A DNA stretch of 64,000 nucleotides from Rhodothermales bacterium (lineage in GTDB: Bacteria; Bacteroidota; Rhodothermia; Rhodothermales; VXPQ01). Shown piece by piece: positions 11,067 through 58,876 of this stretch. Position 1 is the stretch's first letter; every line of letters begins with the position of its first letter. Both the position numbers and the translations under genes were made by a program. The notes under the pieces are model-generated. The model had not been told where the DNA came from and searched no databases. It was given only the letters and a program-made list of their open reading frames with translations. The DNA is taken from the NCBI GenBank assembly GCA_951812335.1, contig OX638293.1:2377584-2441583 (forward strand), given 5' to 3'.

Positions 11067-12590
11067 ATGGCGCTGCACCCGATCGACATCGTCACGTTCT
11101 GTGCGTTCATTGCGGTCGTCATCGGAATCTCGCTGTACGCCTCCCGGCACGAAAGCACCACGGAAGACTATTTCCTTGCAGGACGCAAACTGTCCTGGTG
11201 GCTGATTGGCTTCTCCCTGATCGCTTCCAACATCTCGACCGAGCAGTTCGTGGGAATGGCCGGGCGCGGGTACGATCTGGGCCTTGCCATCGCCAGCTAC
11301 GAGTGGACGGCCGCCATCGCGCTGGTCATTACGGCTCTCTTCTTCCTCCCGAAGTTTCTGAAAGCGGGCATCTACACCATTCCCGAATACCTCGAATACC
11401 GTTTCGACGTCGGGACGCGCACGATCATGGCCACGTTCATGATGCTCGCGTACGTGTTCGTGGCGCTGGCAACGGTGCTCTACGCCGGCGCCCTCGCCCT
11501 CGGCACGATCTTCGAAATAGACATGCTCCTGGGGATCTGGCTGATCGGGATCACGGCGGGCGCCTACACCATCTACGGCGGTCTCGGGGCCGTGGTCTGG
11601 TCGGACCTCCTCCAGGGCATAGCCCTTCTGCTGGGCGGGGCGCTCGTCACGATCCTCGGGTTCCGGGCCATCGGGGGCGTGGAACCGTTCATGGCCGCCG
11701 CCGGCGACAAACTGCATACGGTGCTGCCGTGGAACCACGACGAAATGCCCTGGGTGGCGGTCTTTATAGGCGGTCTCTGGATTCCCCAGATTTTCTACTG
11801 GGGCCTGAACCAGTTCATCACGCAGCGCACGCTCGCCGCCCGCAGCCTTGCCGAGGGGCAGCGCGGGATTTTTCTTGCGGCGGGGCTGAAGCTGCTGCTC
11901 CCCTTCCTGATCGTTTTCCCCGGCATCATGGCCGCCCAACTCTTCCCCGGGCAGGTAACGACCGCCGACGAGGCGTATCCGGTGATGATCCGCGAATTGC
12001 TCCCTGCCGGGCTGAGCGGGATCATGTTCGCCGCACTGTTCGGCGCCATCATGAGTTCGCTCGACTCCATGCTGAACTCCGCCGCCACCATCTTCACGAT
12101 CGACCTGTACAAGCGGTACCGGCGCACCGAGGAAGCCCCAAGGCACTACGTGAAGATCGGGCGCATCGCCACGGCCGTACTGGTGGTCGTCGGCTGCCTC
12201 TGGGCGCCCGTTGTGGGTTCCGCCGAAAGCATTTTCGGATATATTCAGATGTTCTGGGGATTCATTTCTCCTGGAATCGTGGCCTCCTTTGCATTCGGGC
12301 TCATTTCGAAACGCACGCCTCCCATTGCGGCCAAAGCCGCCATGATTCTCGGCATCCCCGTCTACGGCTTCCTCCTGTGGCGGCTGCCGGATGTCGCGTT
12401 CCTTCACCACATGATGATCACCTTTGTGGCGCTTGTGATCTTCATGACCTCCGTCCGGCTGCTGCTTCCCCTGCGCGAGCCGAAGCGTCTTCCTGTTTCG
12501 GACCTGAACCTGGAGCACGCCCGCGGTGCGAAATGGATGGCTGTGGCGGTGGTGCTGGCCACGATCACGCTGTATGTGATCTTCTGGTAA
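11067..12590 (+). CDS. SGLT-type sodium:solute symporter (SSS family)
   Basis: A 507-residue polytopic inner-membrane protein with about 13-14 helices. The family signature is GRKLSWWLIGFSLIASNIST followed by EQFVGMAGRGYDLGLA, as in Vibrio SGLT; later segments such as GLNQFITQRTLAARSLAEGQ also fit. These proteins couple sodium influx to sugar or other solute uptake. Galactokinase lies about 840 bp downstream on the same strand, so galactose uptake is a reasonable inference, not shown. The stop codon TAA (12588-12590) directly touches the first base of repeat copy A. Confidence 0.88.
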   Translation: MALHPIDIVTFCAFIAVVIGISLYASRHESTTEDYFLAGRKLSWWLIGFSLIASNISTEQFVGMAGRGYDLGLAIASYEWTAAIALVITALFFLPKFLKAGIYTIPEYLEYRFDVGTRTIMATFMMLAYVFVALATVLYAGALALGTIFEIDMLLGIWLIGITAGAYTIYGGLGAVVWSDLLQGIALLLGGALVTILGFRAIGGVEPFMAAAGDKLHTVLPWNHDEMPWVAVFIGGLWIPQIFYWGLNQFITQRTLAARSLAEGQRGIFLAAGLKLLLPFLIVFPGIMAAQLFPGQVTTADEAYPVMIRELLPAGLSGIMFAALFGAIMSSLDSMLNSAATIFTIDLYKRYRRTEEAPRHYVKIGRIATAVLVVVGCLWAPVVGSAESIFGYIQMFWGFISPGIVASFAFGLISKRTPPIAAKAAMILGIPVYGFLLWRLPDVAFLHHMMITFVALVIFMTSVRLLLPLREPKRLPVSDLNLEHARGAKWMAVAVVLATITLYVIFW

Positions 12591-12852
12591 TTAAGGATAC
12601 TCTGACCAAAACCGCTTCGCTCAGCGCGTCGCGTTCGCAAGTACAGGTTATCATGATTCCATCGTTGGAATCAGGGGAAGCACTGCGAATTCGGCGCGTC
12701 GCGGACGTGACGCGCCCTTCGGGAGGCTGCGAGAAGCACGCTGGCTGCGTCATTCCTCATTGTGTGGGGCCTGCCACACTGCTTCGTCACTCCTTGCCAG
12801 CCCGCCCCTCGCAAGCCTCTGAGCTTTGCGGACGTAGTCAGAGTATCCTTAA
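12591..12852 (+). repeat. TIR-bounded ~260-bp element, copy A
   Basis: It begins TTAAGGATACTCTGAC and ends GTCAGAGTATCCTTAA, a 16-bp perfect inverted repeat. Internally it carries GTGTGG (12762-12767) and CCACAC (12774-12779), which pair around a GGCCTG loop, and the CCCTTCGGG tetraloop hairpin. Orientation is called plus by the order CCCTTCGGG then the GGCCTG-loop hairpin. It starts on the base after the symporter stop codon. A T6 run (12862-12867) follows ten bases later. Confidence 0.93.
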
Positions 12853-12936
12853 GGCAGGTTTTTTATATTGAATCACTCCCTGTGATTGCCGCAGCCATCC
12901 CTTTCGTTTCCATCCCAACAAAAGGATCTCCGGACC

Positions 12937-13365
12937 GTGCAATGGTATCTTAAGGCCCTGAGGAATTATGTCGGCTTCGAGGGCAGAGCGCGCAGGAAAG
13001 AATACTGGTTCTTTCAATTGTTCTATGGGCTGGGAGGACTATTTATCAGCGCTCCCTTCTGGATCGTCGCCCTGACATGGATAGCTACGGGCACAACCCC
13101 TGACCTGAGCGGTGGTTTGGCTTTGGGCACTCCGGAAATAGTGCTTGGCATCCTGTCCTTGCTTTGGGGGTTGATCCATCTGCTGCCCCTCATTGCCGTG
13201 ACCGTCCGCCGCCTGCACGATACCGGTCGCAGCGGCCTATGGTATCTCCTGGCGATTTTCCTTCCTGTGATCGGTCCCATCTGGCTGCTCGTTTTGACGG
13301 TGCTGGATAGCGAGCCGGGCGAGAACAAATATGGCGCCAATCCCAAGGAGGCGCTTGCGTGGTAA
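12937..13365 (+). CDS. DUF805 family inner-membrane protein
   Basis: A 142-residue protein. The start is a GTG at 12937, chosen because AAAGGA lies ten bases upstream and the product then begins (M)QWYLKALRNYVGFEGRARRK, exactly like family members. Membrane helices are at about 24-52, 65-88 and 105-128, with the conserved VRRLHDTGRSGLWYL motif between the last two. The family's function is unknown. The gene lies between repeat copy A and galactokinase. Confidence 0.88.
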   Translation: MQWYLKALRNYVGFEGRARRKEYWFFQLFYGLGGLFISAPFWIVALTWIATGTTPDLSGGLALGTPEIVLGILSLLWGLIHLLPLIAVTVRRLHDTGRSGLWYLLAIFLPVIGPIWLLVLTVLDSEPGENKYGANPKEALAW

Positions 13366-13427
13366 TCGCCGCCCTGCTGCGCGAACATGGCGGCGTTGCA
13401 ACGGAATGACATGATCGCGACCTTTCT

Positions 13428-14609
13428 TTGGCAGGCAATACGTACGACAAGGCCGTGAAGGTGCTTTCCTCATTTCGGGCCGCTTTCGGCAAGACGGACG
13501 CAAACGATATCCTTATTGTTCGAGCTCCCGGGCGCGTCAACCTGATCGGAGATCACACGGATTACCACGAGGGGTTCGTGCTGCCGATGACCATCGACCG
13601 GTGTGCATACGCGGCGCTGCGGGCGCGCAACGACGACACGGTGAACCTGTACGCCGCGCAGTTCGACGAGTGGATAACGTACCCGCTTTCCGAACGCCCC
13701 GAAACCGAGCCGGGGGCATGGGCCGCCTATGTAACCGGAGTCGTCAGCGAGCTTCGGGACCGGCTGCCCGGCGGATTCGAGATGCTCGTCGAGAGCGATG
13801 TGCCCATCGGCGCCGGTCTGAGTTCGTCGGCAGCCCTCTCCACAGCGGTCATCTACGGCCTCGACCAGTTGTTCGGCCTCGGGATCGACCCTATCGATGC
13901 GGTGCACCTGTCTCAGCAGGTAGAACACCGCTACGCGGGCGTCTCCTGCGGCATCATGGACCCGTTCGTATCCCGGCTGGGGCGCCGCAGGCACGCCTTG
14001 CTGCTCGACTGCCGATCGCTTGCCTGCGAACACGTGCCCCTGACTAATACGGAACGAGACCGGAACGACGCCTTCGAGATCGTCATCGTCGATTCGGGGG
14101 TGCGGCGCGAACTGGCTTCCTCCAGCTACAATACCCGGCGCAGCGAATGCGAGCAGGCCCTCGAAACGATCCGGGAAGCCCGTCCCGATATACGGAGTCT
14201 GCGCGACGCCAAGCCCGAAGACTTGTGGCTCCTCCCGTCCCTCCAGCACCGCCGGGTCCGGCATGTCCTGGAGGAAAACGACCGCGTACTGCAGGCGCGG
14301 GACGCCCTGAGAAACGGGGATTTCGAGGCGTTCGGGATATTGATGAACCAGTCGCACGACAGCCTGCGCGACCTGTACGAGGTAAGTTGCGAGGAACTGG
14401 ATACGCTGGTTGCTGCCGCCCGGAACGTGGATGGCGTGGCAGGCGCCCGGATGACCGGGGGCGGTTTCGGGGGCTGCACGGTGAATCTGGTGCGTCAGAC
14501 CGCCGTGCCCGCCCTTCGCGAGGCGCTTTGCGAAACCTATGCGAAAACGTACAGGCGCACCCCTGTGATCTACGTGGTCCGGGAGAACCATCGGACGGAA
14601 CGGATGTAG
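13428..14609 (+). CDS. galK: Galactokinase
   Basis: A 393-residue GHMP kinase that phosphorylates galactose at C1 in the Leloir pathway. Motif I is GRVNLIGDHTDYHEGFVLPM (about 32-51), the ATP-binding motif is GAGLSSSAAL (about 126-135), and motif III is ARMTGGGFGGCTVNL (about 341-355). The length is normal. The proposed start is TTG at 13428; a GTG nine codons later is an alternative and no ATG precedes motif I. No galT or galE is adjacent. The SGLT-type symporter upstream is a plausible partner for uptake. Confidence 0.9.
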   Translation: MAGNTYDKAVKVLSSFRAAFGKTDANDILIVRAPGRVNLIGDHTDYHEGFVLPMTIDRCAYAALRARNDDTVNLYAAQFDEWITYPLSERPETEPGAWAAYVTGVVSELRDRLPGGFEMLVESDVPIGAGLSSSAALSTAVIYGLDQLFGLGIDPIDAVHLSQQVEHRYAGVSCGIMDPFVSRLGRRRHALLLDCRSLACEHVPLTNTERDRNDAFEIVIVDSGVRRELASSSYNTRRSECEQALETIREARPDIRSLRDAKPEDLWLLPSLQHRRVRHVLEENDRVLQARDALRNGDFEAFGILMNQSHDSLRDLYEVSCEELDTLVAAARNVDGVAGARMTGGGFGGCTVNLVRQTAVPALREALCETYAKTYRRTPVIYVVRENHRTERM

Positions 14610-14645
14610 GATCCGCTTCTTTGACCAGACCGCATTCCGTGCGCC

Positions 14646-15926
14646 ATGACTATATTGCACGGAGCCGAAGAGAAGCTCTCTGCGCTTGATTTTACAAGCG
14701 GGCTCCTTACGAAAACCTACCTCGAACTGCCGCTTCTGCTCGACGAAATCGTGCGCGTCACGACGGAGGCGATGCATGCGCGGGCCTGCGCCATCCGGCT
14801 GCTCGACAAGCATTCGGGCGAGATGGTGCTCAAGGCTTCTTCCGGCCTCAGCGAAGAATACCTGTACGCACACCCGCTCACGGCGGCCAGCAGCATCTTC
14901 CGGCAGTTCGCCGCAGGAAACCACGAACCGATCGCGATCATGGACATTGCGAGGGACCCGCGAACGGACTATGTGCGCGAAGCAGCAGGCGAAGGCGTCC
15001 ATTCCTTCCTGTCCGCTCCACTCGTGCAGGATGGCGAGGCGATCGGTACCCTCTCGATGTTCAGCCCCGGACCGCACGATTTTACTCTGGACGAACGGCG
15101 CCTATTCAGCACCATGGCCAACCAGGCGTCTGTTGCTATCTCACTGGCCTGGCTCTACAAGGAGCAAATCGCCCTTCGGCAGATCGAACACGAACTGGAA
15201 ATCGCTGCCGACATTCAGCGCAAGCTCATGCCGGAAAGCGCCCCCTCCATTCCTCCTTTCGACATCGCAGGCGCCTGCCACCCCTGCTATGAGATCGGCG
15301 GAGACTTCTTCGACTTCATCGAACTGCCCGGAGGCAATCTCGGCATCGTCGAGGGGGACATCTCCGGCAAGGGCGTTCCGGCGGCTCTCCTCATGGCCAC
15401 CGTCCGGACGGCGCTCCGGGTGCAGGCCGAGAACATCTTCTCCATACAGGATGTGCTGCGCAAAGTGAACCGCGCCGTCTGGGAGGATACGAGCCCCGAA
15501 GAATTCGTCACCCTGTTCTACGGCGTACTCGACACGCAGGCAGGCGTGCTGACCTATGTGAATGCGGGACACAGCGCCGCGCTGCTCGTGCGCGAGGGAA
15601 CGGTCACGCCGCTTCCCCCGGCAAGCCCGCCCATCGGCATTCTCCCGGACCTCCTCCCCGAACAGGAAACGCTGCAATTCCTCGAGGGAGATGTGCTCGC
15701 CATCTGTACGGACGGGTATTCGGATACGGAAGGGGCAGACGGCGAACCGCTCGGCGAAGAGGGTATCGCGGAGACGCTTCGCCAACATGCCGACCTGTCA
15801 GCCAAAGCGATCATCGAAAAACTGGAAGAAACGGTTGCAGCCTTCCAGCCCGACCCGACCGCCGCATACTGCGATGATCGGACGGCGATCGTGGCGAAGC
15901 GGCAGGAGGCTTGTTCACGACCGTAG
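14646..15926 (+). CDS. GAF-domain PP2C-type serine phosphatase (RsbU/SpoIIE-like)
   Basis: A 426-residue cytoplasmic protein. A GAF sensor domain occupies about residues 25-165 (AMHARACAIRLLDKHSGEMV). A short helical linker (EHELEIAADIQRKLMPESAP) follows, then a SpoIIE phosphatase domain with the metal-binding YEIGGDFFDFIELPGGNLGI, GDISGKGVPAALLMA and YVNAGHSAALLV motifs. Such proteins usually dephosphorylate an anti-anti-sigma factor in a partner-switching pathway. No such partner genes are adjacent. The gene starts 36 bp after galK. Confidence 0.88.
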   Translation: MTILHGAEEKLSALDFTSGLLTKTYLELPLLLDEIVRVTTEAMHARACAIRLLDKHSGEMVLKASSGLSEEYLYAHPLTAASSIFRQFAAGNHEPIAIMDIARDPRTDYVREAAGEGVHSFLSAPLVQDGEAIGTLSMFSPGPHDFTLDERRLFSTMANQASVAISLAWLYKEQIALRQIEHELEIAADIQRKLMPESAPSIPPFDIAGACHPCYEIGGDFFDFIELPGGNLGIVEGDISGKGVPAALLMATVRTALRVQAENIFSIQDVLRKVNRAVWEDTSPEEFVTLFYGVLDTQAGVLTYVNAGHSAALLVREGTVTPLPPASPPIGILPDLLPEQETLQFLEGDVLAICTDGYSDTEGADGEPLGEEGIAETLRQHADLSAKAIIEKLEETVAAFQPDPTAAYCDDRTAIVAKRQEACSRP

Positions 15927-16196
15927 CGGCTATTCGCTCGCTGCTTTGTCGGCTTAGCTCGCCAGAATGCGTTGGGTGCCGAATACGCGTATCGGCGCCA
16001 TACTGTACCTCGTCCCTCGACGCAGTGCGCTTTTTGTGTTCGAAGTGATGGTCAGGCGTGCAACTGAATCCCCGATGACGTATTGTACAAATGGAAACCG
16101 TTTGCCAAAGCGGTATAGCCCGGCGTCAGGACACGTATAGCACTATGCACCTTTTATGGCGCCCCGCTCCTCTTACTCTCACAAACCTGACAGGCC
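15927..16196. other. Intergenic region with nothing recognised
   Basis: About 270 bases between the PP2C gene and the LRR gene. I see no coding frame with protein-like character, no strong terminator and no RNA gene. The promoter of the LRR gene presumably lies here, but no -35/-10 or Bacteroidota -7 element is convincing. Confidence 0.5.
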
Positions 16197-18905
16197 ATGA
16201 AAATGCCATACTCTGCCATAAAATGCTTGACCTCTCAGCTGCTCCTCGGCATCGCCTGCCTCCTCGCGTTCCCCACCCTGGTCGCAGCCCAGGGCTCGGT
16301 AGAGACAGATCGTGCTGCGCTGGTGGCGTTGTACGACTCAACGGGAGGAGATAACTGGAGAGGCAATACCAACTGGAAAAGCGATAAGCCTCTTGGAGAG
16401 TGGTATGGTATTACTACCAATGAAGACGGGCGAGTAGAATCCATTGATTTTAATCATCATAATAGACTGACCGGTTCTATACCCCCTGATATAGGGGATC
16501 TTGTGTATTTAAGGAAAATTAACCTTGAAGGAAACGATCTCACCGGTTCTATACCTTTCGAAATAGAAAATCTTATCCATTTAGAGATTTTAAACCTTAG
16601 ATTCAACGAACTGACCGGCCCTATACCTCCTGGGATAGTCAATCTTGTGAATTTGAAAGAAATAGATCTCGACGTTAATGATATAAACGGCCATATTCCT
16701 TCAAATATAGGTGACCTTGTTAATTTGGCCCGCATTAGTTTAGCACAAAATGAGTTAACCGGCCCTATACCTCCTGGGATAATAAACCTGGTGAATCTGA
16801 AAGAAATAAATCTCGGTGCCAACGATATAAATAGTGGTATTCCTTCAGGGATAGGTAATCTTATCAGTCTAACGTCTGTCAATTTGGGAAACAATGGATT
16901 AACCGGTTCGATTCCTCCAGAAATAGGTAATCTCGTGAACCTGACCCTTCTCATTTTCTCTGGCAATCAATTAACGGGACCGATTCCTGTCGAGATAGGA
17001 AATCTGGTAAATCTCACATATCTTGGTATGAGTTCTAATCTGCTTAGGGATCCGATACCTCCGGAAATAGGCAATCTCGTGCATCTAACCGAGCTTTATC
17101 TTGGATCCAATCAATTAACAGGACAGATACCTTCCGAGATAGGAAATCTGGTAAACCTGAGAGGGCTAAGCCTTAGTTCTAACCGGTTGACCGGCTCCCT
17201 ACCCCCCGAAATGGGTAATCTTGTGAACCTGAAGACACTTAGCCTTCGTTCCAATCGATTGACTGGTGAAATACCTTCTGAAGTATGTAACATTTTATTA
17301 CTCCCTCAGATAAGGGTTCTGTTGGACGACAATCCAGGATTGATCAATAATTGTCTCCGGGTACCTGAGGAATTTGTCAATAACAGGAGGCAAATTTTTG
17401 AAATACTTCAGGAGGATGACCCTCCTACTATAAGACCTGTTGAATTCATATTAATACAAGAAAATTCTTATGGGAGGGTATGGATTTCGGACGAGGCGTT
17501 TCAAACAATAAATATTTCTGATGAATCTATGGAGAATTTTTTGACCTATATTTTTTCTTCGATACCTGCAGATTCTACAAAGGGCATTTTTGAATATGGA
17601 AGAGATCTTTTAGGAACAGTTCGAGAAAATCATGTGAATGATAATAATGGCGAAAGAATCGTGGATATGCTTTGTCATATTTATCATTGGAAATACTTAG
17701 GACTGGCTTTCACTCATTCCAGCAGTATAAATATCTTCCAATATAACTCTTCTCCGTTTGGACCAGGACATCTGGTATATTCTCAAGTCATCGCACATGA
17801 ATATGTACATAATATACATAATGTATATGGCACATATTTGGACATTGATTTTTTTATTGAAGGTTTAGCCGAATGGGCGGCTGATAACATAATGTTTGCT
17901 GAGGGAGATAGTCTGTTTACTTTTCCGTATAACAATCCTTCATCCCCTGGTGAGCCTCTCTTTCCTCCACGCCCTTTCGATTATGATAACGCCAGGATAT
18001 TCGCAACGTATCTTGCTGATCGTATTGGGTCAGATAATATGAAATATCTTATACAGGTATGTAAGCCTGGGGGTGTTTGCGATCCGGATAATCCGGACAA
18101 TGGTGACTGGTATCAGGGTATTGACGGACTGGACTATGCCCTCTCCTCGCTCGATTCTTCTCTTACTCTTTCGAATATTGTGGTGGATTATCACACTACA
18201 AATCTCGTTAATGACCCTACTGTTTTTCTTAATGGAGTAAATCATGGCTATGAAACAACAAGATATGCGAATAAGGAGATGTGGCCCCTAAACGTTGTGG
18301 TTGTCAATTTTTCAGATAATTCATTTTCGGAAAAAGAGCTTCAGATACATCCAGGAGGGTTTGGTTACATCACCTACGGAAGTTCCTCCGACATGCATCT
18401 CTCAATTGATACCAATCATAATACAATCACATCGCTTCGGTTATTCAAGGAACGGGATAACACAAAAGAACTTGTGGAAATTGACAGCGATGTTAGTGAA
18501 TACACGGTTACCGGGGATTACGACCGTGTAACGCTTATCGCCGTACATAACAACCCGAGGCCGGATCAACCTGTAATCACCCTTAACATAGCAGCCTCTC
18601 AGAACTATGATCCCATGTCTACGGAAGATGAGGAGATCCCTGTAGCCCTCTCTCTTGCGCAGAATTACCCCAATCCCTTCAATCCGTCTACGTTCATCCG
18701 GTGGGCGCAACCGCAAACCGGGCAAGTTCGTCTTTCCGTGTACAATATGCTTGGGCAGGAAGTAGCCACATTGGCCGACGAGGTTCGACCCGCAGGAACG
18801 CACGAAATCCGTCTCGACGCTTTAGACTGGACAAGTGGCGTGTATGTGTACGTGCTGGAAGCAGGCGAGCAAACGCTGACGCAAAAAATGATCCTGCTGA
18901 AGTAA
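16197..18905 (+). CDS. Secreted LRR protein with HEXXH metalloprotease domain and type IX-like sorting tail
   Basis: A 902-residue protein. A signal peptide ends LVAAQG (about 1-32). About eleven plant-type leucine-rich repeats of 24 residues follow (about 85-385; pattern LTGSIPPEIGNLVNLTLLIF). Next is a domain with HEYVH at 534-538 and a downstream EGLAEW whose Glu559 fits a gluzincin third ligand, as in M9 collagenase-like peptidases. The last ~85 residues begin NYPNPFNPST and end QKMILLK, a C-terminal secretion and sorting domain. The LRR/protease core is AT-rich with many ATA and AGA codons, while both ends are GC-rich like the genome, suggesting an acquired cargo between native export modules. 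It is predicted to be exported and surface-bound or released. Confidence 0.85.
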   Translation: MKMPYSAIKCLTSQLLLGIACLLAFPTLVAAQGSVETDRAALVALYDSTGGDNWRGNTNWKSDKPLGEWYGITTNEDGRVESIDFNHHNRLTGSIPPDIGDLVYLRKINLEGNDLTGSIPFEIENLIHLEILNLRFNELTGPIPPGIVNLVNLKEIDLDVNDINGHIPSNIGDLVNLARISLAQNELTGPIPPGIINLVNLKEINLGANDINSGIPSGIGNLISLTSVNLGNNGLTGSIPPEIGNLVNLTLLIFSGNQLTGPIPVEIGNLVNLTYLGMSSNLLRDPIPPEIGNLVHLTELYLGSNQLTGQIPSEIGNLVNLRGLSLSSNRLTGSLPPEMGNLVNLKTLSLRSNRLTGEIPSEVCNILLLPQIRVLLDDNPGLINNCLRVPEEFVNNRRQIFEILQEDDPPTIRPVEFILIQENSYGRVWISDEAFQTINISDESMENFLTYIFSSIPADSTKGIFEYGRDLLGTVRENHVNDNNGERIVDMLCHIYHWKYLGLAFTHSSSINIFQYNSSPFGPGHLVYSQVIAHEYVHNIHNVYGTYLDIDFFIEGLAEWAADNIMFAEGDSLFTFPYNNPSSPGEPLFPPRPFDYDNARIFATYLADRIGSDNMKYLIQVCKPGGVCDPDNPDNGDWYQGIDGLDYALSSLDSSLTLSNIVVDYHTTNLVNDPTVFLNGVNHGYETTRYANKEMWPLNVVVVNFSDNSFSEKELQIHPGGFGYITYGSSSDMHLSIDTNHNTITSLRLFKERDNTKELVEIDSDVSEYTVTGDYDRVTLIAVHNNPRPDQPVITLNIAASQNYDPMSTEDEEIPVALSLAQNYPNPFNPSTFIRWAQPQTGQVRLSVYNMLGQEVATLADEVRPAGTHEIRLDALDWTSGVYVYVLEAGEQTLTQKMILLK

Positions 18906-18916
18906 ATATAGAGCGC

Positions 18917-19039
18917 ATGCGCCTGTCCTGGAATGAAATACGCTCCCACGCGGCGGCGTTCGCCCGCAAGCGGGAATGGCCCCGGAACAAGACCATCCTC
19001 GACCTGCTGCACGCGGTGGACCGGATCGCCAATCCCTGA
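18917..19039 (+). pseudogene. Remnant of an MmeI-like restriction-modification gene start
   Basis: The first ~19 codons (MRLSWNEIRS, then FARK) are nearly identical to the start of the truncated MmeI-like gene at 27789, differing at only a few bases, and then similarity stops. The frame ends after 40 codons. It begins 11 bp after the stop of the LRR protein gene. The short tail (NKTILDLLHAVDRIANP) is not recognised. It is a relic and not expected to make a working enzyme. Confidence 0.7.
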
Positions 19040-19297
19040 ACGAGCCGGGCATCGACGCACCCGCTGAGACCTCAAGCACAAGCCCAACACGTATCAGTCC
19101 GTTCTTGTTTAATCGAATCGAACTTCTTCCGATCGTCACGTGGAACTCACATGTACGGCAAGTGCGTCTCATGCGCACCGGGAACTTCAGCGACTCGACA
19201 CGCTCGGAATGCCAGGAGGATCAGTCAGGAACAAAGCGTTGGCGAATTGGGAGATCGGGATCGAAATTTCGATACAGAGTCAGGGATTGGGGCACTA
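19040..19297. other. Intergenic region carrying a scar-like leader repeat
   Basis: Bases 19053-19090 (ACCCGCTGAGACCTCAAGC core) resemble the leaders found at 24476, 26183 and 27757, placed close to relics or accessory genes. The rest, up to the IMPase start, shows no recognisable feature. The frame is open upstream of the IMPase start but does not look like protein. Confidence 0.55.
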
Positions 19298-20062
19298 ATG
19301 GCGACCAGATTTGAACATGCAATTGAGATTGCGAAAATCGCATCTGAAACCGCACTGAGATATTTCAGGAGAAAAACTGACGTCGAGTTCAAATCGGATG
19401 AGAGCCCTGTAACCCAGGCTGACCGCAACATTGAGTACCGAATTCGCGAGATCCTGGGCGAGCGCTACCCCGAAGACGGAATCTTCGGAGAGGAGCACGG
19501 TATTGAACGGGCCGATTCGGAGCACATGTGGGTCATTGATCCGATCGATGGAACCCGATCCTTCATAGCCGGGAGCCCGCTCTTTGGGTTCCTTCTCGGA
19601 CATCTATCCGGCGGAGTGCCGGATATCGGAATCATCGGAATGCCCGCTCTGGGCGAAATCTTTGCCGCCGAGGCCGGATCAGGCGCCACGATGAACGGCA
19701 TTCCGATCAAAACATCGGGCCAAAGGCAACTCAACCAATCAATACTCTATATCAATGAAGGAGGGAAAATCTTCGCCGAACATCCCGGGAAGTTTGCTCG
19801 CCTTGTCCATTCGGGACAGACGCGGCGGTTTGCCCACGACTGCTATTCACACGCCCTGGTTGCCGCCGGATTTGCGGACGCGGTGGTCGATTTTGACCTG
19901 AAACCCTATGACTACCTGCCGATATCGACGGTGGTGCAGGCGGCGGGTGGTTCGATATCGGATTGGTCCGGACAGCCACTGAGTCTGAAGTCGAACGGTA
20001 CAATAATCGCGGCGGCAACCCCGGAACTGCATGCGCAAGTTCTGGAACTGCTGCGGGACTGA
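19298..20062 (+). CDS. Inositol-monophosphatase-family phosphatase (HisN-like histidinol phosphatase)
   Basis: A 254-residue metal-dependent phosphatase. The metal-binding residues are visible: GEEHG (Glu65, Glu66), WVIDPIDGTRSFIAG (Asp81, Asp84) and the C-terminal LKPYDYLPISTVVQAAGG. The spacing and VTQADRNIEYRIRE region are typical of the HisN branch, which removes phosphate from histidinol phosphate, but inositol-phosphate or other substrates cannot be excluded. The ATG at 19298 follows a GGGG run. It is the first of four same-strand genes (to 24448) that look like a transferred cassette. Confidence 0.82.
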   Translation: MATRFEHAIEIAKIASETALRYFRRKTDVEFKSDESPVTQADRNIEYRIREILGERYPEDGIFGEEHGIERADSEHMWVIDPIDGTRSFIAGSPLFGFLLGHLSGGVPDIGIIGMPALGEIFAAEAGSGATMNGIPIKTSGQRQLNQSILYINEGGKIFAEHPGKFARLVHSGQTRRFAHDCYSHALVAAGFADAVVDFDLKPYDYLPISTVVQAAGGSISDWSGQPLSLKSNGTIIAAATPELHAQVLELLRD

Positions 20063-20247
20063 ATGATGTTTGCATAACCCACTTTCGCCTTGCAGCCGAT
20101 AGTGTTTATCGTATTGCCGGTGAGACATTACAACTGCCGGGGCCGGCGGTAAGGGCTGTTCCGGCTGACTATCAACCAAAATCGCAAAACTTGCCGGTTG
20201 GTTTGTGATGAACCGGTCCGAGTACCACCAAGAAGGGGGTGACGCCG

Positions 20248-21609
20248 ATGTCTGAAGTATTGACCTTTGAGGAATTGAAAACGGCCGTGTCCGATGGATC
20301 GGTAGATACGGTCCTTGCGTGTCTCGTCGACATGCAGGGCCGGCTGATGGGTAAACGCTTTGTCGCCCGACACTTCGTTGATAGCGCCTGGGAAGAAACG
20401 CATTGCTGCGACTATCTGCTGGCAACCGACCTGGAGATGGCCACGCCGGACGGCTACGCCTCGACCAGTTGGCAAAGCGGCTATGGCGACTATGTCATGA
20501 AACCGGATTTGAGCACGTTGCGGCCCCTGCCCTGGCTTGAGGGGACGGCTATGGTGTTGTGCGACATTCTCGATCATCACACCCATAAAGAAGTCGCCCA
20601 TTCGCCAAGGGCGGTACTGAAAAAGCAGGTGGCCCGGCTCGAAGCGATGGGGTTGACGGCGATGATGGCAACCGAGCTTGAATTCTTTTTGTTTGAGAAG
20701 AGCTTCGATGATATCCGCAAGGAGGGATTCCGCAGCCTGGAGCCGATTTCGGGCTACAATCAGGATTACCATATCCTGCAAACCACCAAGGAAGAGGATA
20801 TCATGCGCCCGGTGCGCAATTATCTGGTCGCGGCCGGCGTACCCGTGGAGAATTCCAAGGGGGAGGCGGAGACCGGTCAGGAAGAACTCAACATCAGGTA
20901 TGCTCCGGCTCTGGAAACAGCAGACCATCACACCATCGCCAAGCATGCGGTCAAGGAAATCGCCTGGCAAAAAGGGCGGGCGGCGACGTTTTTGTCAAAA
21001 TGGCACCACAACAAGGTCGGCTCCTCATCCCACGTCCACCAATCGATTTGGAAAGACGGTAAATCAGCATTTTTCGATGCGAACGACGAATTGGGCATGT
21101 CCGCACTCATGCGCAACTATCTGGCCGGGCTGTTGAAATACGCCGTCGAATGCACCTGTTTTCTCGCGCCCTATGTCAACAGCTACAAACGGTTTCAAAA
21201 AGGAACGTTTGCCCCGACACGGATAATCTGGTCTGTCGACAACCGTACCGCCGGTTTCCGTTTATGCGGCGACGGAACCGAGGCGGTGCGGGTTGAATGC
21301 CGCATCGGCGGTTCGGACATCAATCCTTATCTGGCCCTTGCCGCCCAGATCGCGGCCGGCGTCAAGGGGATCGAGGAGGCGCTCGAGCTTGTTCCGCCCG
21401 CCAAAGGCGATGCGTATGAAGGCAGCAGCGGAATGATTCCAAAGAACCTTCGCGATGCCCGCGAAGCGCTCAAGGGATCCGCAATGCTGCGTGAGGCATT
21501 CGGCGATGAAGTGATCGATCACTACTGCCGGGCAGCCGAGTGGGAGTTGGAAGAGTTCGACCGTGTCGTAACCGATTATGAGGTCGCACGCGGGTTTGAG
21601 CGGTCGTGA
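20248..21609 (+). CDS. Glutamine-synthetase-family ligase (gamma-glutamyl-amine synthetase-like)
   Basis: About 453 residues with the GS fold: an N-terminal beta-grasp (VLACLVDMQGRLMGKRF), then ATELEFFLF, GSSSHVHQSIWKDG (nucleotide/metal site), NRTAGFRLCG and VECRIGGSDINPYLALAA. The start is the ATG at 20248, nine bases after AAGAAGGGGG; a GTG three codons earlier is possible. It is more like amine or polyamine gamma-glutamylating enzymes than housekeeping GlnA, and the aldehyde and alcohol dehydrogenases that follow support a role in amine or amino-alcohol catabolism. The exact substrate is inference. An imperfect AACCAA/TTGGTT inverted repeat lies upstream near 20175-20200. Confidence 0.82.
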   Translation: MSEVLTFEELKTAVSDGSVDTVLACLVDMQGRLMGKRFVARHFVDSAWEETHCCDYLLATDLEMATPDGYASTSWQSGYGDYVMKPDLSTLRPLPWLEGTAMVLCDILDHHTHKEVAHSPRAVLKKQVARLEAMGLTAMMATELEFFLFEKSFDDIRKEGFRSLEPISGYNQDYHILQTTKEEDIMRPVRNYLVAAGVPVENSKGEAETGQEELNIRYAPALETADHHTIAKHAVKEIAWQKGRAATFLSKWHHNKVGSSSHVHQSIWKDGKSAFFDANDELGMSALMRNYLAGLLKYAVECTCFLAPYVNSYKRFQKGTFAPTRIIWSVDNRTAGFRLCGDGTEAVRVECRIGGSDINPYLALAAQIAAGVKGIEEALELVPPAKGDAYEGSSGMIPKNLRDAREALKGSAMLREAFGDEVIDHYCRAAEWELEEFDRVVTDYEVARGFERS

Positions 21610-21669
21610 GACCGGGATGAACAAACGGTAAACCCCACCAGCATTCATTTGCAGGACAAGAGGTTTGTG

Positions 21670-23046
21670 ATGACCAGGACACTTACCTGTGTGTCCCCTA
21701 TCGACGGCTCTGTGTATGCAGAACGGAACTGCATGACGCTTGAGGAGGCCAGCGCGGCAGCCATCAGAGCCAGAGAAGCGCAGATGGACTGGAGACAGCG
21801 CCCACTGTCGCAACGCGTGGAACTTGTGATGGCGGGGGTGGCCGGCATCGGCGATATGGACGATGAAGTCGTGATCGAACTGGCCCACATGATGGGCCGT
21901 CCGGTGCGCTATGGCGGCGAGTTCCGCGGCGTCAACGAACGCGCCGGCTACATGGCGGATATTGCCGAAGAGGCTTTGCAAGCCATCGAAATAGAGGACA
22001 GCAACACCTTCCGTAGGGTAATAAAACGAGAACCGCAAGGCCTGGTGTTCGTGGTTGCCCCGTGGAACTACCCATACCTGACGGCAATCAATTCCGTAGC
22101 GCCGGCGCTCATTGCAGGCAATGCGGTCATGCTGAAACATGCAACCCAAACCCTGCTGGCGGGCGAGCGCATGGTACGGGCATTCACCGAAGCAGGCATA
22201 CCGGCGGATATCTTTCAAAACGTGTTTTTGGATCATGAGACGACCGCGGAGTTGATTGCGCAGAACGCTTTTGACTTTATCAACTTCACGGGTTCGGTTG
22301 GCGGCGGCAGAACGATGGAAATCGCAGCCGCCGGAACGTTCACCGGCGTAGGCACCGAGCTGGGCGGAAAGGACCCGGGCTATGTGATGGACGATGTCGA
22401 TCCGGATGCCGCAGCTGAATCCTTGATCGACGGAGCCATGTTCAACTCCGGTCAATGTTGTTGCGCCATAGAACGCATCTATGTGCACGAAAGCCTGTTT
22501 GACGAGTTTGTCGAGAAAGCGGTTACGATTGTCAAAGGCTATAAGCTTGGTAACCCGCTGGATAAGAACACCACCCTTGGGCCAATGGCAAGTATACGTT
22601 TTGCCGAAGAGGTGCGAACGCAAATTGCCGAGGCGATCGAGCAGGGCGCCAGGGCGCACATAGCAACGTTTGCCGAAGATGACGGCGGCGCCTATCTGTC
22701 TCCGCAAATCCTGACCGGTGTTACGCATGATATGCGCGTGATGCGCGATGAGAGTTTTGGGCCGGTTGTCGGCATCATGAACGTGTCGTCGGACGAAGAG
22801 GCGATCGAATTGATGAACGATTCCGAGTTCGGTCTCACCGCTTCGCTTTGGACCAAAGATCCGGCACGCACAGAAGCCATTGGCGCACGGCTTGAAACCG
22901 GTACGGTATTCATGAACCGCGCGGACTATCTGGACCCCGCACTTTGCTGGACCGGCTGCAAAAACACCGGCAGAGGCGGCGCCCTGTCCGTTATCGGCTA
23001 TCACAACCTCACCCGACCCAAATCATATCATTTAAGGATACTCTGA
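21670..23046 (+). CDS. NAD(P)-dependent aldehyde dehydrogenase; stop codon supplied by a repeat
   Basis: About 458 residues. It has the ALDH cofactor motif FTGSVGGGRTMEIAA, the general-base GTELGGKDPGYV and the catalytic Cys in FNSGQCCCAIERIYV. The start at 21670 follows AAGAGG by six bases; GTG 21667 or ATG 21649 are alternatives. It oxidises an aldehyde to the acid, probably downstream of the adjacent glutamine-synthetase-like ligase. The last three codons (RIL) and the TGA stop lie inside the terminal inverted repeat of repeat copy B, so insertion replaced the native end. Confidence 0.85.
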   Translation: MTRTLTCVSPIDGSVYAERNCMTLEEASAAAIRAREAQMDWRQRPLSQRVELVMAGVAGIGDMDDEVVIELAHMMGRPVRYGGEFRGVNERAGYMADIAEEALQAIEIEDSNTFRRVIKREPQGLVFVVAPWNYPYLTAINSVAPALIAGNAVMLKHATQTLLAGERMVRAFTEAGIPADIFQNVFLDHETTAELIAQNAFDFINFTGSVGGGRTMEIAAAGTFTGVGTELGGKDPGYVMDDVDPDAAAESLIDGAMFNSGQCCCAIERIYVHESLFDEFVEKAVTIVKGYKLGNPLDKNTTLGPMASIRFAEEVRTQIAEAIEQGARAHIATFAEDDGGAYLSPQILTGVTHDMRVMRDESFGPVVGIMNVSSDEEAIELMNDSEFGLTASLWTKDPARTEAIGARLETGTVFMNRADYLDPALCWTGCKNTGRGGALSVIGYHNLTRPKSYHLRIL

Positions 23047-23289
23047 TCAAGTCCACTTCGATCAGCGCTTTACTTTCACGCATAAAGCAACGACATGCTT
23101 GTATCCTTAGCGAAAAACACGGCAGATTCGGGCCGTCGCGGTCGTGAAGCGCCCTTCGGGAGGCAGACAGGGGCACGCTGGCTGTGTCATTCCTCATTAT
23201 GTGGGGCCTGCCACATTGCTTCGTCATTCCTTGCCAGCACACCCCTGTCAGCCTCTGAATCTTTGCGGACTTGATCAGAGTACCCTTAA
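23032..23289 (+). repeat. TIR-bounded ~260-bp element, copy B
   Basis: It begins TTAAGGATACTCTGATCAAG and ends CTTGATCAGAGTACCCTTAA, with one mismatch between the arms. The outer stem pairs GACAGGGG (23166-23173) with CCCCTGTC (23242-23249). The inner hairpin pairs ATGTGG (23199-23204) with CCACAT (23211-23216) around GGCCTG. It separates the aldehyde dehydrogenase from the alcohol dehydrogenase, and the alcohol dehydrogenase start lies 14 bp beyond its end. Confidence 0.93.
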
Positions 23290-23302
23290 AGAAAGCAACA
23301 TC

Positions 23303-24448
23303 GTGAATCTCGTCGGAAACTGGTCCTATCCCACTGCAATCAGGTTCGGCGCGGGTCGTATCGAGGAATTGCCGTACGCCTGCGCGCAAGCCGGCATTAA
23401 AAAACCGCTTCTTGTAACGGACAGCGGGCTTGCCGAGCTTCCGATCACGGCCCGGGCGCTCGACATTCTGGAAGCGGCAGGGCTGGGAAGGGCTTTGTTT
23501 TGCGAAGTCGATCCTAATCCGAACGAAAAGAACCTCGACGCCGGCGTCGCCGCCTACAAGGCAGGCGGCAACGACGGCGTCATCGCTTTTGGCGGAGGGT
23601 CCGGCATGGACCTGGGCAAAATGGTGGCGTTCATGGCGGGACAGACGCGTCCAATATGGGATTTTGAAGACATTGGCGACTGGTGGACGCGCGCCGACGC
23701 CCATGCAATCGCGCCAATTGTCGCGGTTCCCACAACCGCCGGGACCGGTTCGGAAGTCGGCAGGGCGTCGGTAATCACCAATTCCGAAACGCGCGTGAAG
23801 AAAATTATCTTTCATCCGAAGGTCCTGCCTTCTGTGGTCATCTGCGATCCGGAACTGACGGTTGGCATGCCCGGATTCATTACCGCCGGCGCCGGGCTCG
23901 ACGCGTTCGCGCATTGCGTCGAGGCATTCTCCTCCCCCCATTATCACCCGTTGTCCCAGGGAATCGCGCTCGAGGGCATGCGCCTGGTCAAGGAATATCT
24001 TCCGCGAGCCTACCGGGACGGTTCCGACCTGGAAGCGAGAGCCCATATGATGAGCGCGGCCGCCATGGGCGCCATCGCGTTTCAGAAAGGCCTCGGCGCA
24101 ATTCATGCTCTCAGCCATCCGGTGGGCGCGACGTTCAATACCCATCACGGCACCACCAACGCGGTCTTCATGCCCGCGGTACTGGACTTCAACGCTCCCG
24201 CAATCCGCGGCCGGTTCGATCAGGCCGCTGCCTATCTCGGCATAGAGGGCGGCTTCGCCGGCTTCCGTTCTTTCGTCGGCGATTTTAACGACAGCCTGGG
24301 CATTCCGCGCAGGCTATCGGAAATGGGCGTCGTTGCCGACCGTATGGATGAACTGGTTAAGGGAACGCTTGCAGACCCTTCCTGCGGCAGCAACCCGATT
24401 GAACTTAATGCCGAAAACGTAAAACAGCTGCTGGAGGCCTGTATCTGA
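23303..24448 (+). CDS. Iron-containing (group III) alcohol dehydrogenase
   Basis: A 381-residue protein. It has the NAD site GVIAFGGGSGMDLGK, the PTTAGTGSEVGRASVI segment, and metal ligands in GLDAFAHCVEAFSS and HALSHPVGATFNTHHGTTNA. It interconverts an alcohol and an aldehyde or ketone, likely with the upstream aldehyde dehydrogenase. The start is taken as the GTG at 23303, 14 bp after copy B; the longer open frame upstream is repeat sequence, so the native upstream region has been displaced and any promoter would now lie in the repeat. Confidence 0.86.
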   Translation: MNLVGNWSYPTAIRFGAGRIEELPYACAQAGIKKPLLVTDSGLAELPITARALDILEAAGLGRALFCEVDPNPNEKNLDAGVAAYKAGGNDGVIAFGGGSGMDLGKMVAFMAGQTRPIWDFEDIGDWWTRADAHAIAPIVAVPTTAGTGSEVGRASVITNSETRVKKIIFHPKVLPSVVICDPELTVGMPGFITAGAGLDAFAHCVEAFSSPHYHPLSQGIALEGMRLVKEYLPRAYRDGSDLEARAHMMSAAAMGAIAFQKGLGAIHALSHPVGATFNTHHGTTNAVFMPAVLDFNAPAIRGRFDQAAAYLGIEGGFAGFRSFVGDFNDSLGIPRRLSEMGVVADRMDELVKGTLADPSCGSNPIELNAENVKQLLEACI

Positions 24449-24475
24449 GAGGCATTAAGCAACTGAATTGGCGGG

Positions 24476-24545
24476 ATTGCGACCTTGTTTCGCGTCGACG
24501 GACCCGATGAGACCCCAGGCACGAGCGCATGCGCCTGTACTGGAC
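24476..24545 (+). repeat. Repeated leader scar with MmeI-like start remnant
   Basis: The segment ATTGCGACCTTGTTTCGCGT followed by CGACGGACCCGATGAGAC is shared with 26183-26230. It is followed by GAGCGCATGCGCCTGTACTGG, the leader and first codons of the MmeI-like gene seen intact at 27789 and as a relic at 18917. Only about six codons of that gene remain here. It appears to be a deletion scar. Confidence 0.65.
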
Positions 24546-24552
24546 GCTTCGT

Positions 24553-24648
24553 CAATAGATAACTGACAAAAAATCAATTGCCTATATGACATAAAAGCAA
24601 TTAGGTATATTTCATAATATCAATTGAGTATATTGCAAAAAGTCAATT
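24553..24648. promoter_or_regulatory. Five 22-23-bp spaced CAAT(T) iterons upstream of fic
   Basis: CAATAG (24553), CAATTG (24575), CAATTA (24598), CAATTG (24621) and CAATTT (24643) recur at 22, 23, 23 and 22 bases, mostly preceded by A/G-T. Three of them share a following TATAT six or so bases on. The AT-rich block ends 16 bp before the Fic start. The about-two-turn spacing would put each site on the same helix face, so it looks like an operator array for a cooperative repressor, perhaps the winged-helix C-terminus of the Fic protein itself. That regulator is inference. Confidence 0.6.
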
Positions 24649-24664
24649 TCAAACCGATCTGACT

Positions 24665-25834
24665 ATGTTATTCACGTATCCTGCACTGGACGATGCGGAA
24701 AAGCGGGTAGAGTACGCAACAACCGGGATACGGGCCGCTCTGCGCCGCTACATCGCTGCGGAACCGCCCTGCTGGGCGGATTTGCTGGCCCGCATGACCC
24801 GGGCGCGCGCCCTTGCCGCATCCGCCAGCGTGGCAGGCGTCCACGTGTCCGACGAGGACGCCATCGCCGCAATCGACCGGGAGGAGCCCGCGGACACGGA
24901 TCGCGACGCCTGGCGGGCCGTGGTCGGTTACCGCCAGGCGATGGAGTACATTTTCCAGCGCCACCGGAATCCCTCTTTTACCATCACGGAGGATATGCTG
25001 ATGGCGGTTCATTTCATGATCTGCCAGTCGGACAGGGAGGCGAACCCGGGTCGGTACACCCCCGGATGGGTTTGCGTGCGAAATACCAGCACCGGCGACG
25101 TGACGTACGAAGGGGTAGACCGCGACCGCCTGGAACCCTTAATGCGCGAACTGCTGGACTACGCGAACGAGGGGCAGGGCGAATCCGTCTTGCTGCGCGC
25201 GGCCATGACCCACCTGAATCTGGTGCTGCTGCACCCGTTCACGGACGGCAACGGACGGACCGCCCGATGCATGCACACCGCCGTGCTGGCGCGCGACGGC
25301 ATGGCGGCGCCTGCATTCTCTTCCATCGAAGCGTATATCGGTCGCAATCGACAGACCTATTACGACGTACTGGCGGAGGTGGGCGGCAGCGGATGGCGTC
25401 CGGAGCGTGACGTCAAACCGTGGGTGCGCTTCTGCCTGCGCGCCCATTACCGGCAGGCGCAAACGCTCCTGCGCCGTACGCGCGAAATGGAAAGAGTGCA
25501 TGCAGAACTTGCGGAACTGGTGGAAACCTGCGGGTTCCCCGACCGGACGGTGCTGGCGCTCCTTCAGGCCGCTTTTGGAATCAGGGTTCGCAATGCGTCC
25601 TACCGGGCAAGCGCGGACGTATCCCAAAGCATAGTCAGCCGCGAACTGGGCGCGCTTGTGGACGCAGAACTTCTTATCCCGGAGGGGAACAGGCGGAGCC
25701 GCTCGTATAGCGCATCGCCCATGGTGGCGGAAATCCGCCAGAGACTGCGCCTCCCCGATGAAGAGGACGATCCTTTCGCGGAGGACGGGCGGGGCGGGGC
25801 TGCCGGGGATTTGCAGGACCGTCTTTGCGATTGA
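24665..25834 (+). CDS. Fic-domain AMP-transferase-like protein with C-terminal winged helix
   Basis: A 389-residue protein. The Fic catalytic motif HPFTDGNGRTAR starts at His190. The C-terminal ~110 residues read as a winged helix-turn-helix (YRASADVSQSIVSRELGALV). Fic enzymes transfer AMP or other groups to target proteins. The usual N-terminal inhibitory motif (S/T)xxxE(G/N) would align with Ser53-Ala-Ser-Val-Ala57-Gly58, where the inhibitory Glu is Ala. The start ATG at 24665 follows the CAATTG iteron array. Repeat copy C follows 78 bp after the stop. Confidence 0.83.
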   Translation: MLFTYPALDDAEKRVEYATTGIRAALRRYIAAEPPCWADLLARMTRARALAASASVAGVHVSDEDAIAAIDREEPADTDRDAWRAVVGYRQAMEYIFQRHRNPSFTITEDMLMAVHFMICQSDREANPGRYTPGWVCVRNTSTGDVTYEGVDRDRLEPLMRELLDYANEGQGESVLLRAAMTHLNLVLLHPFTDGNGRTARCMHTAVLARDGMAAPAFSSIEAYIGRNRQTYYDVLAEVGGSGWRPERDVKPWVRFCLRAHYRQAQTLLRRTREMERVHAELAELVETCGFPDRTVLALLQAAFGIRVRNASYRASADVSQSIVSRELGALVDAELLIPEGNRRSRSYSASPMVAEIRQRLRLPDEEDDPFAEDGRGGAAGDLQDRLCD

Positions 25835-25912
25835 GATAATATTGCGTGGTTCAAGCAGATGCTCTGTCGGGGTAGTGGCGCTTCGGCCCGCTTCGACAAA
25901 TTCCGAAGCAAT

Positions 25913-26174
25913 TGAAGGATACTCTGATCAAAATCGCTTAGATCAGCGCTTCACGTTCGTGCGTAAAGGATATCATAATTGCATCGTTGAAATTAGCGAG
26001 AAACGCTGCGGATTCGGGGCAGTGCGGGCGTGAAGCGCCCTTCGGGAGGCTGCGAGAAGCACGCTGGCTGCGTCATTCCTCATTATGTGGGGCCTGCCAC
26101 ATTGCTTCGTCATTCCTTGCCAGCGCACCCCTCTCAGCCTCTGAACTTCGCGGACTTAATCAGAGTATCCTTAA
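25913..26174 (+). repeat. TIR-bounded ~260-bp element, copy C
   Basis: It begins TGAAGGATACTCTGATCA and ends TAATCAGAGTATCCTTAA. CTGATC (25924-25929) and GATCAG (25941-25946) form a side hairpin. The outer stem pairs CGCTGGC (26062-26068) with GCCAGCG (26119-26125). The inner hairpin pairs ATGTGG (26085-26090) with CCACAT (26097-26102). The CCCTTCGGG tetraloop is kept. It occupies most of the 435-bp gap between the Fic and AlbA_2 genes. Confidence 0.93.
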
Positions 26175-26182
26175 GGCGCAGG

Positions 26183-26230
26183 ATTACGACCTTGTTTCGC
26201 GTCGACTAACCCGATGAGACTCCAAGCCCA
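26183..26230 (+). repeat. Repeated leader scar
   Basis: ATTACGACCTTGTTTCGCGT then CGACTAACCCGATGAGACTC nearly duplicates 24476-24519, and the distal part resembles 19053-19085. It starts 8 bp after the end of copy C and lies 39 bp before the AlbA_2 gene start. Confidence 0.65.
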
Positions 26231-26269
26231 AACATACAGCGTTCAGTAAACACTCAGTGGGGAAAGCGC

Positions 26270-27619
26270 ATGAATGAAGACCAGAACACCGAATGGAAAG
26301 AGTCCTGGCACGATAAGTACATAGAGTGGCTGTGCGCTTTCGCTAACGCGCAGGGCGGCGTACTGGAAATTGGCCGCAACGACAAGGATCAGGTAGTGGG
26401 TCTCGACAACGCTGAACAGTTGATGAAGGATTTGCCCAACAAGCTCCGCGACCTGCTCGGAATTGTGCCCGACATTAATCTTCTGGAGGAGAAGGGGCTA
26501 TCGTACGTACAGATTGTGGTCGAACCGTATCCGGTGCCGATCAGCTACCGCGGCAAGTATCACTATCGAAGCGGCAGCACCAAGCAGGTGCTCACAGGCG
26601 CGGCTCTTGATCGCTTCCTGCTGGGCAAGACGGGGAAGCGCTGGGATGCCGCACCGGTTCCGGGCGTGGGGGTTGGCGACCTGGATGCCGGAAATTTGAC
26701 CGGATTCCGTGAACGGGCGACCCGCACCAATCGCTTGGGAAAGGATATACTCGACGAGGATAATGTCGGGCTGATTGAGAAGTTGCGTCTGGCAGAAGGT
26801 CAATATCTCAAACGAGCGGCTATCCTCCTGTTTCATCCTGATCCTGAACGCTTCTTTACCGGGGCAGCAGTCAGGATTGGCTATTTTGAGAGCGAGACCG
26901 ACCTGCGCTATCAGGACGAGATATGCGGCGATCTGTTCACGCAGGTCGATACAACGATGGACCTGTTGCTGACCAAGTACCTGAAGGCCGCCATTAGTTA
27001 CGAAGGTATCCAGCGCATTGAGACCTATCCGGTGCCGGAAGGGGCGCTGCGGGAAGCGGTGTTGAATGCTATCGTCCACCGTGATTACGCCATTCCCGCA
27101 CAGATACAAATTCGGATATACGCCGACCGGTTACAGATATGGAATCCCGGGGAATTGCCCGAGGATTGGTCGTTGGAAAAATTACTGGGCCAGCATCCTT
27201 CCCGACCCTTCAATCCGGATGTGGCGAATGCCTTTTTTCGAGCTGGAGAAATCGAAACCTGGGGGCGAGGGATTCAGCGTATCCTCGAGGCCTGTCGCGA
27301 GGCGGGTACGCCCCAGCCGGACATACAGGTGGAATCGGACGGATTATGGATCGATTTTCCGTTTTCAAAGGCTTACCGTGACAGCATTGAACCCGGTGAT
27401 GGCCCTTTCGAAGCATCGGAGGCGACTACCCAGGAAAGGATTCTCGCCTTATTGCGCGAGGATCCGGAACTCACAGGAAAAGCCCTGGCAGACCACATAG
27501 GAATCACTGCTGCTGGCGTCAGATATCATCTTGATAGTCTCAGGAAAGCAGGTCACATCCGCCATGTCGGACCGACCAAGAAGGGGCGCTGGGAGGTTAT
27601 GGATGACGACCATGTATAA
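26270..27619 (+). CDS. Schlafen AlbA_2-domain ATP-binding protein with winged helix
   Basis: A 449-residue protein. An AlbA_2 domain (TEWKESWHDKYIEWLCAFAN, GGVLEIGRNDKDQVVGL) occupies about residues 5-125. The middle carries a GHKL-type ATPase region (LREAVLNAIVHRDYAIPAQI, ETWGRGIQRILEACREAG). A C-terminal helix-turn-helix (ELTGKALADHIGITAAGVRY) follows a TTQE linker. Proteins of this type are annotated as transcriptional regulators or RecG-like and are frequent in accessory and defence islands; the function is uncertain. The gene lies between copy C and a truncated MmeI-like gene. Confidence 0.82.
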   Translation: MNEDQNTEWKESWHDKYIEWLCAFANAQGGVLEIGRNDKDQVVGLDNAEQLMKDLPNKLRDLLGIVPDINLLEEKGLSYVQIVVEPYPVPISYRGKYHYRSGSTKQVLTGAALDRFLLGKTGKRWDAAPVPGVGVGDLDAGNLTGFRERATRTNRLGKDILDEDNVGLIEKLRLAEGQYLKRAAILLFHPDPERFFTGAAVRIGYFESETDLRYQDEICGDLFTQVDTTMDLLLTKYLKAAISYEGIQRIETYPVPEGALREAVLNAIVHRDYAIPAQIQIRIYADRLQIWNPGELPEDWSLEKLLGQHPSRPFNPDVANAFFRAGEIETWGRGIQRILEACREAGTPQPDIQVESDGLWIDFPFSKAYRDSIEPGDGPFEASEATTQERILALLREDPELTGKALADHIGITAAGVRYHLDSLRKAGHIRHVGPTKKGRWEVMDDDHV

Positions 27620-27641
27620 TAGCGAAACCTCTATGAACGTA

Positions 27642-27733
27642 GAGACTACCCAAGAAACTAGCTAAGAAACTACCCAAGAAACTAGCTAAGAAAACTAGCC
27701 TATAAACTGGCCTATAAAACTATCCTATAAACA
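27642..27733 (+). repeat. Decayed 12-bp and related tandem repeats
   Basis: Units alternate GAAACTACCCAA and GAAACTAGCTAA, then drift to AAACTGGCCTAT and AAACTATCCTAT. In one frame this reads ETTQETS-stop twice, matching the TTQE linker inside the AlbA_2 protein just upstream. I infer that it is a degenerate, no longer translated copy of that linker, left by slippage or by a lost paralogue. Confidence 0.7.
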
Positions 27734-27756
27734 GAGGCGCTCCGGCCCGCTTCAAC

Positions 27757-28798: not shown

Positions 28799-28814
28799 GC
28801 CGGAAGTTTTGCCC

Positions 28815-58837: not shown

Positions 58838-58876
58838 ATCGGATTCGCCTCGTCATGAGGCGTGTGGGTCGTTACC

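Follow-up and report, generated by a model that had tools for sequence, protein, structure and literature searches.

Two described systems come closest to the gene studied here. Lugdulysin, the neutral metalloprotease of Staphylococcus lugdunensis (PDB 7bb8 and 7bb9), represents a family that we take to be peptidase family M30, the hyicolysin family. The second system is the T9SS cargo of Porphyromonas gingivalis, in which allelic or domain exchange has swapped the bodies of Kgp and PrtT while their tails stayed native (PMC5266723). The consulted portion of that account concerns exchange between strains of one species and reports no composition mosaic.

We compared these systems with a gene in a window of 64,000 nucleotides (the whole stretch of DNA analysed), taken from a Rhodothermales bacterium whose genome, here labelled G000, is a single contig of 2.69 Mb. 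The ORF at 16197-18905 on the forward strand starts with ATG and encodes 902 residues. It matches lugdulysin in the catalytic region and, as far as the consulted portion of the P. gingivalis account goes, resembles Kgp and PrtT in being a constant CTD protein with a variable catalytic domain or body (PMC5266723). Six genomes of the genus were sampled, including G000, and G001, G002, G003 and G004 were compared with it at the locus. The features of the locus are as follows.

12853-28424, no strand assigned: tract 97-99% identical to G004, with the gene inside; its left neighbour is 92% identical
16197-18905, forward strand: whole ORF, 902 aa, with signal peptide, LRR array, M30-like metalloprotease, beta-rich region and T9SS type A tail
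16197-16292, forward strand: putative signal peptide, aa 1-32 (...FPTLVAAQ), called from the sequence; GC-rich codons, GC3 0.70-0.73
16293-17312, forward strand: LRR cap and LRR array, aa 33-372 (Pfam LRR_1, 5.7e-36, 8 stretches); AT-rich from about aa 60
16338-18503, forward strand: AT-rich body, aa 48-769, GC3 about 0.33, from change-point fits
17436-18119, forward strand: M30 (lugdulysin)-like gluzincin domain, about aa 414-641 (profile against PDB 7bb8, E=1.2e-34)
17796-17810, forward strand: HEYVH zinc-binding motif, aa 534-538; H, E and H invariant in 29 relatives
17859-17861, forward strand: E555 of EGLAEW, likely third zinc ligand; invariant in 29 relatives and aligned with NEALS of lugdulysin
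17982-17984, forward strand: Y596, opposite Tyr315 of lugdulysin; invariant in the 29-relative alignment
18060-18119, forward strand: two-cysteine loop insert (C-KPGGV-C ... GDWYQG), common only to this protein and the genus's own M30 T9SS protease
18666-18893, forward strand: T9SS type A sorting domain, aa 824-899, GC-rich codons (TIGR04183, 9.9e-12; PF18962, 1.2e-9)
18914-19039, forward strand: start of a restriction-modification-like gene, as a scrap fused to a GH18 gene remnant

The assignment of the protease rests on a profile built with 29 relatives within the order, rather than on the single query sequence; this profile matched lugdulysin 7bb8 (and 7bb9) among PDB chains at the E-value given above. 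H534, E535, H538, E555 and Y596 align with the HExxH motif, the downstream Glu and Tyr315 of lugdulysin (E242/Y315 in the numbering of 7bb9), and all five are invariant across the 29 relatives. On this evidence the core is a predicted M30 lugdulysin-like zinc protease, and a family of T9SS metalloproteases, widespread in Rhodothermales and unnamed, is now linked to a solved structure. The initial annotation had proposed an M9-like gluzincin in which HEYVH is followed by a Glu after 20 residues. HEYVH is there, but the invariant Glu is E555, with 16 residues between, while E559, at 20 residues, is not invariant. The M9 assignment fell away: Pfam and NCBIfam scans up to E=1 contained no M9 family, and the PDB profile search returned no collagenase chain. 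Families M1 and M61 were likewise unsupported by Pfam, NCBIfam or the PDB profile search, where no such chain matched.

The likeness to lugdulysin has its limits. The spacing from HExxH to Glu is 22 residues in lugdulysin as against 16 here, and lugdulysin has neither LRR array, two-cysteine insert nor T9SS tail. A Pfam scan of the query returned no M30 match. NF045524 (MXAN_6640 family putative metalloprotease) matched weakly over the HExxH-to-Glu stretch, at 4.5e-5 to 2e-5 in the query and up to 2.5e-10 in LRR-free relatives; membership was rejected at 23-25 bits against a curated cut-off of 140 bits. A single-sequence structure model of residues 382-902 had a mean pLDDT of 38, too low for use.

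At the N-terminus, a hydrophobic stretch and an AAQ site, read from the sequence alone, point to a putative signal peptide. The tandem LRRs score 115 bits with LRR_1 (Pfam cut-off 20.6), and the sorting domain is of type A at 44.7 bits with TIGR04183 (cut-off 23). PorU was the component of the T9SS machinery that we looked for, and G000 encodes this sortase (NF033707, 962 bits) together with about 48 sorting tails.

Relatives of the core occur in 55 of 114 genomes from the order. Where their ORFs were read, they all lack an LRR array, and nearly all carry a T9SS tail. The combination had been flagged as unusual, with the proviso that homologues of the same full architecture might occur throughout the order; we looked for these, and within the searched genomes no other genus combined LRR, M30 domain and tail, an architecture now recorded at two sites. 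The first is the present locus, in G000, G004 and G003; the second is another locus in G003, whose copy is 54% identical in the core. The sole match in the genome collection was the Rhodothermales MAG OX638295.1. The class, the sample of the phylum and the collections of genomes, plasmids, phages and viruses yielded no closer relative of the core: the plasmid and phage collections gave zero matches, and the viral contigs scanned contained no core relatives.

Composition along the gene is mosaic, as had been noticed at the outset. Within the gene, GC drops from about 0.58 to 0.30-0.45, then climbs back to about 0.55. For synonymous GC3, a fit with three segments gave 0.73, 0.33 and 0.57, with breaks at residue 48 (interval 35-66; residue 60 with all codons) and residue 769 (interval 710-785). 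Its log-likelihood gain of 25, against a maximum of 14.6 in 30 shuffles, was the highest among the T9SS-tail genes tested in G000; the runner-up, at 21.0, is a cargo gene whose 5' end is AT-rich and whose body is GC-rich. The body of the query gene, with cut points fixed, has a GC3 of 0.36, the lowest among 45 measurable T9SS cargo genes of G000 (next lowest 0.49, mean 0.67). The reported excess of ATA, AGA and TTA-type codons was confirmed against the other cargo genes (Ile ATA 0.52 vs 0.17; Arg AGA+AGG 0.56 vs 0.16; Leu TTA 0.17 vs 0.03), and Pro CCT follows suit (0.64 vs 0.13). The proposed bounds of the core and its native-looking ends stood in part. The AT-rich body does lie between ends with GC-rich codons, but its 3' break falls about 50 residues ahead of the sorting tail, within the body and not at a module edge, and the tail itself has a GC3 of about 0.6, somewhat under the cargo mean of 0.70.

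Neither module forces the AT-rich codons, since the large LRR cargo genes of G000 have a GC3 of mostly 0.75-0.79 and its native M30 paralog one of 0.69. GC is normal in the neighbouring genes to either side. The AT-rich body recurs in the G003 ortholog and, less strongly, in the second G003 copy (GC3 0.56, 0.35 and 0.54), so the mosaic is no fresh join.

Synonymous divergence also varies along the gene. Between the G000 and G003 orthologs, dS is 0.68 over residues 1-60, 0.51 and 1.29 in two parts of the LRR array, 0.80 in the protease and 0.45 in the beta region, then 0.31 and 0.38 in the last parts, which make up the final 135 codons; two flanking genes have dS of 0.27-0.30. This profile fits an import of diverged bodies. 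Its contrast between the LRR and protease body on the one side and the last codons and flanks on the other, together with GC3 breaks near both ends, speaks for the origin proposed in the initial annotation, in which a signal peptide and a sorting tail of the host came to enclose a core inserted from an unrelated, AT-rich source. The high dS of the 5' end and the position of the 3' break inside the body are at odds with such an insertion, and so is the kinship of the core.

Among LRR-free proteins, the core is most closely related to the genus's own T9SS M30-like HEYQH protease, present in all six genus genomes (in G000, an ORF of 972 aa, core at C1:1088973-1089806, tail ending at 1091225). The tail of our gene is also nearest to the tail of this paralog; identities are 31-36% in the core and 54-67% in the tail. 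The paralog has no LRR array and normal GC3, and the region between its protease and tail is longer than in the query. Both proteins carry the two-cysteine insert, of 12-14 residues, which is present in none of the 21 other relatives (0/21). In the tree, a branch with 96/96 support parts the query clade and the paralog from those 21, with the caution that long branches call for; the branch of the query lineage measures 1.87 changes per column. Forcing the core together with the short HEYTH relatives was 8.7 log units worse, without clear rejection (AU test, p = 0.061). Since insert, tail and best matches agree, protease and tail appear to have come as a single unit from this genus's own lineage, a result that weighs against a foreign core of unrelated origin. 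That origin, already weakened by the private insert and by a mosaic that is not fresh, we regard as very unlikely. As the closest relatives belong to the same genus, we favour a fast-evolving accessory gene over a foreign core with host export tags. A sharp composition mosaic within a gene thus need not mean an unrelated foreign core, given that homology of core and tail points to the same genus.

The source of the AT bias is a separate question. Searches of 244 genomes from the class, of 394 sampled genomes from the phylum and of the collections of genomes, plasmids and phages turned up no lower-GC donor; the homologue search suggested for the core thus yielded many relatives within the order and no foreign AT-rich donor. 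The empty donor search, the long branch and the tree position beside the genus's own protease would suit a history with no transfer at all, in which a resident duplicate drifted AT-rich under weak selection or local mutation bias while constraint kept its ends. The patchy occurrence at two unrelated loci, the normal GC of the neighbours on both sides and the high GC3 of native LRR cargo and of the M30 paralog count against drift, as does the present direction of substitution, which is towards GC. Since the split of G000 and G003, the body has accumulated 43 AT-to-GC against 20 GC-to-AT substitutions, an excess expected if the AT bias is a relic, although these parsimony counts, made with a distant outgroup, are biased towards that same excess and lend weak support. 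We consider drift alone unlikely. The reading that fits best is that the AT-rich body retains the codon bias of a lower-GC gene pool, the ends of the gene being nearer the host composition, and a lower-GC source of the body is possible. Against this reading, the second G003 copy shows the bias to be old, and it ought to have faded further had the gene remained in this host.

Taken as a whole, the gene probably encodes an accessory T9SS-exported zinc endopeptidase with an LRR docking region, descended from the M30 lineage of the genus, with an inserted LRR array and a codon bias from a lower-GC pool. Protease and tail would share a common lineage with the genus's own M30 T9SS protease, the LRR array having been inserted between signal peptide and protease, and the gene would circulate between species as an accessory gene. 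By established T9SS biology, the protein would be exported by Sec and then directed through the T9SS by its tail; PorU would remove the tail, and the protein would stay on the surface or be released. The LRR array may bind a target, either protein or polymer, beside which the M30 domain may cleave protein.

Another way to account for a diverged body between more conserved ends is that T9SS genes or alleles repeatedly swap their cargo bodies by way of shared ends while keeping native tails. Both here and in several further cargo genes, dS is indeed higher in the body than in the tail, and the consulted portion of the P. gingivalis account offers a precedent in catalytic-domain alleles of CTD proteins (PMC5266723). 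Comparisons across cargo-gene stretches and a few loci of the genome lent the process no generality. Over 31 cargo orthologs of G000 and G004, median dS was 0.14 for bodies and 0.17 for tails (p = 0.50), and a general rule that cargo bodies outpace tails at synonymous sites was dropped. Among the other tails of G000, none exceeds 65% identity to the query tail, which speaks against recent tail exchange and excludes a tail freshly copied from another G000 gene. Repeated body swapping seems an unlikely explanation for this gene. We hold as distinctly unlikely the more specific proposal that AT-rich LRR-protease bodies from a lower-GC pool were swapped into the host export frame, with cargo diversifying by homologous recombination at signal peptide and tail.

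Some other cargo genes deserve mention in their own right. At G000:C1:184969 (1137 aa), 2161806 and 1327522, body and tail dS against G004 are 1.17 and 0.32, 0.40 and 0.07, and 0.40 and 0.09, so that body dS is about 4-6 times tail dS; the excess may mark body exchange in these individual genes. Tails that are 99-100% identical in protein occur at G000:C1:1278232 and 1283603, and at 686119, 1391522 and 2607734, which suggests recent duplication or gene conversion.

Accessory status of the gene is evident from the locus itself. The tract that holds it is 99.1% identical between G000 and G004, against 92% immediately upstream, and the dS of the gene between the two is 0.002, against a cargo median of 0.14-0.17; the tract with the gene was recently exchanged between these two species. 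After the PP2C gene, G001 and G002 have an ATPase cassette and other genes instead of the query gene, and the second G003 copy sits where G000 has only about 70 bp. The ortholog at this locus in G003 is cut within the LRR array, and its halves lie at two contig ends (L054 1-62 and L052 10780-10837). Inverted ends GGGAATTATATATTTAA and an 8-bp duplication TTCGGGAA identify the splitting element as a predicted insertion sequence, presumably IS1595-like. Directly after the G003 ortholog, in the same direction, follows a GH18 gene (PF00704, 2.7e-44) of which G000 keeps only the remnant listed above; this neighbour fits, without proving, a role in polymer or matrix breakdown.

Three further observations concern the surroundings. 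A dispersed repeat of about 260 bp, which resembles a MITE-type element, lies in the window at 12589-12855, 23030-23289, 25911-26174, 45311-45572, 58875-59142 and 61484-61750, with partial copies at 28722-28801 and 30007-30049. The copies are 77-86% identical to that at 12589, have inverted ends (TTAAGGATACTCTGAT...ATCAGAGTATCCTTAA) and are predicted to form a very strong hairpin (about -140 kcal/mol). In G000 an initial scan gave 262 candidates; the best 40 of them were scored, and full-length copies number at least 40. Many copies are also present in the other five genomes of the genus. One copy coincides exactly with the left edge of the tract exchanged with G004. On the tract exchanged with G004, a Fic-domain gene (24665-25831) is followed by an AlbA_2/RecG-like regulator gene (26270-27619). 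Scraps of the 5' end of what we take to be a restriction-modification-like gene (MRLSWNEIRSRAAEFARKW...) are dispersed across the region and its relatives, at 27789-28442 and 18914-18980 of the window, at 11090-11170 and 12810-12890 of L134, at 8674-8780 of L052 and at 18625-18690 of L149.
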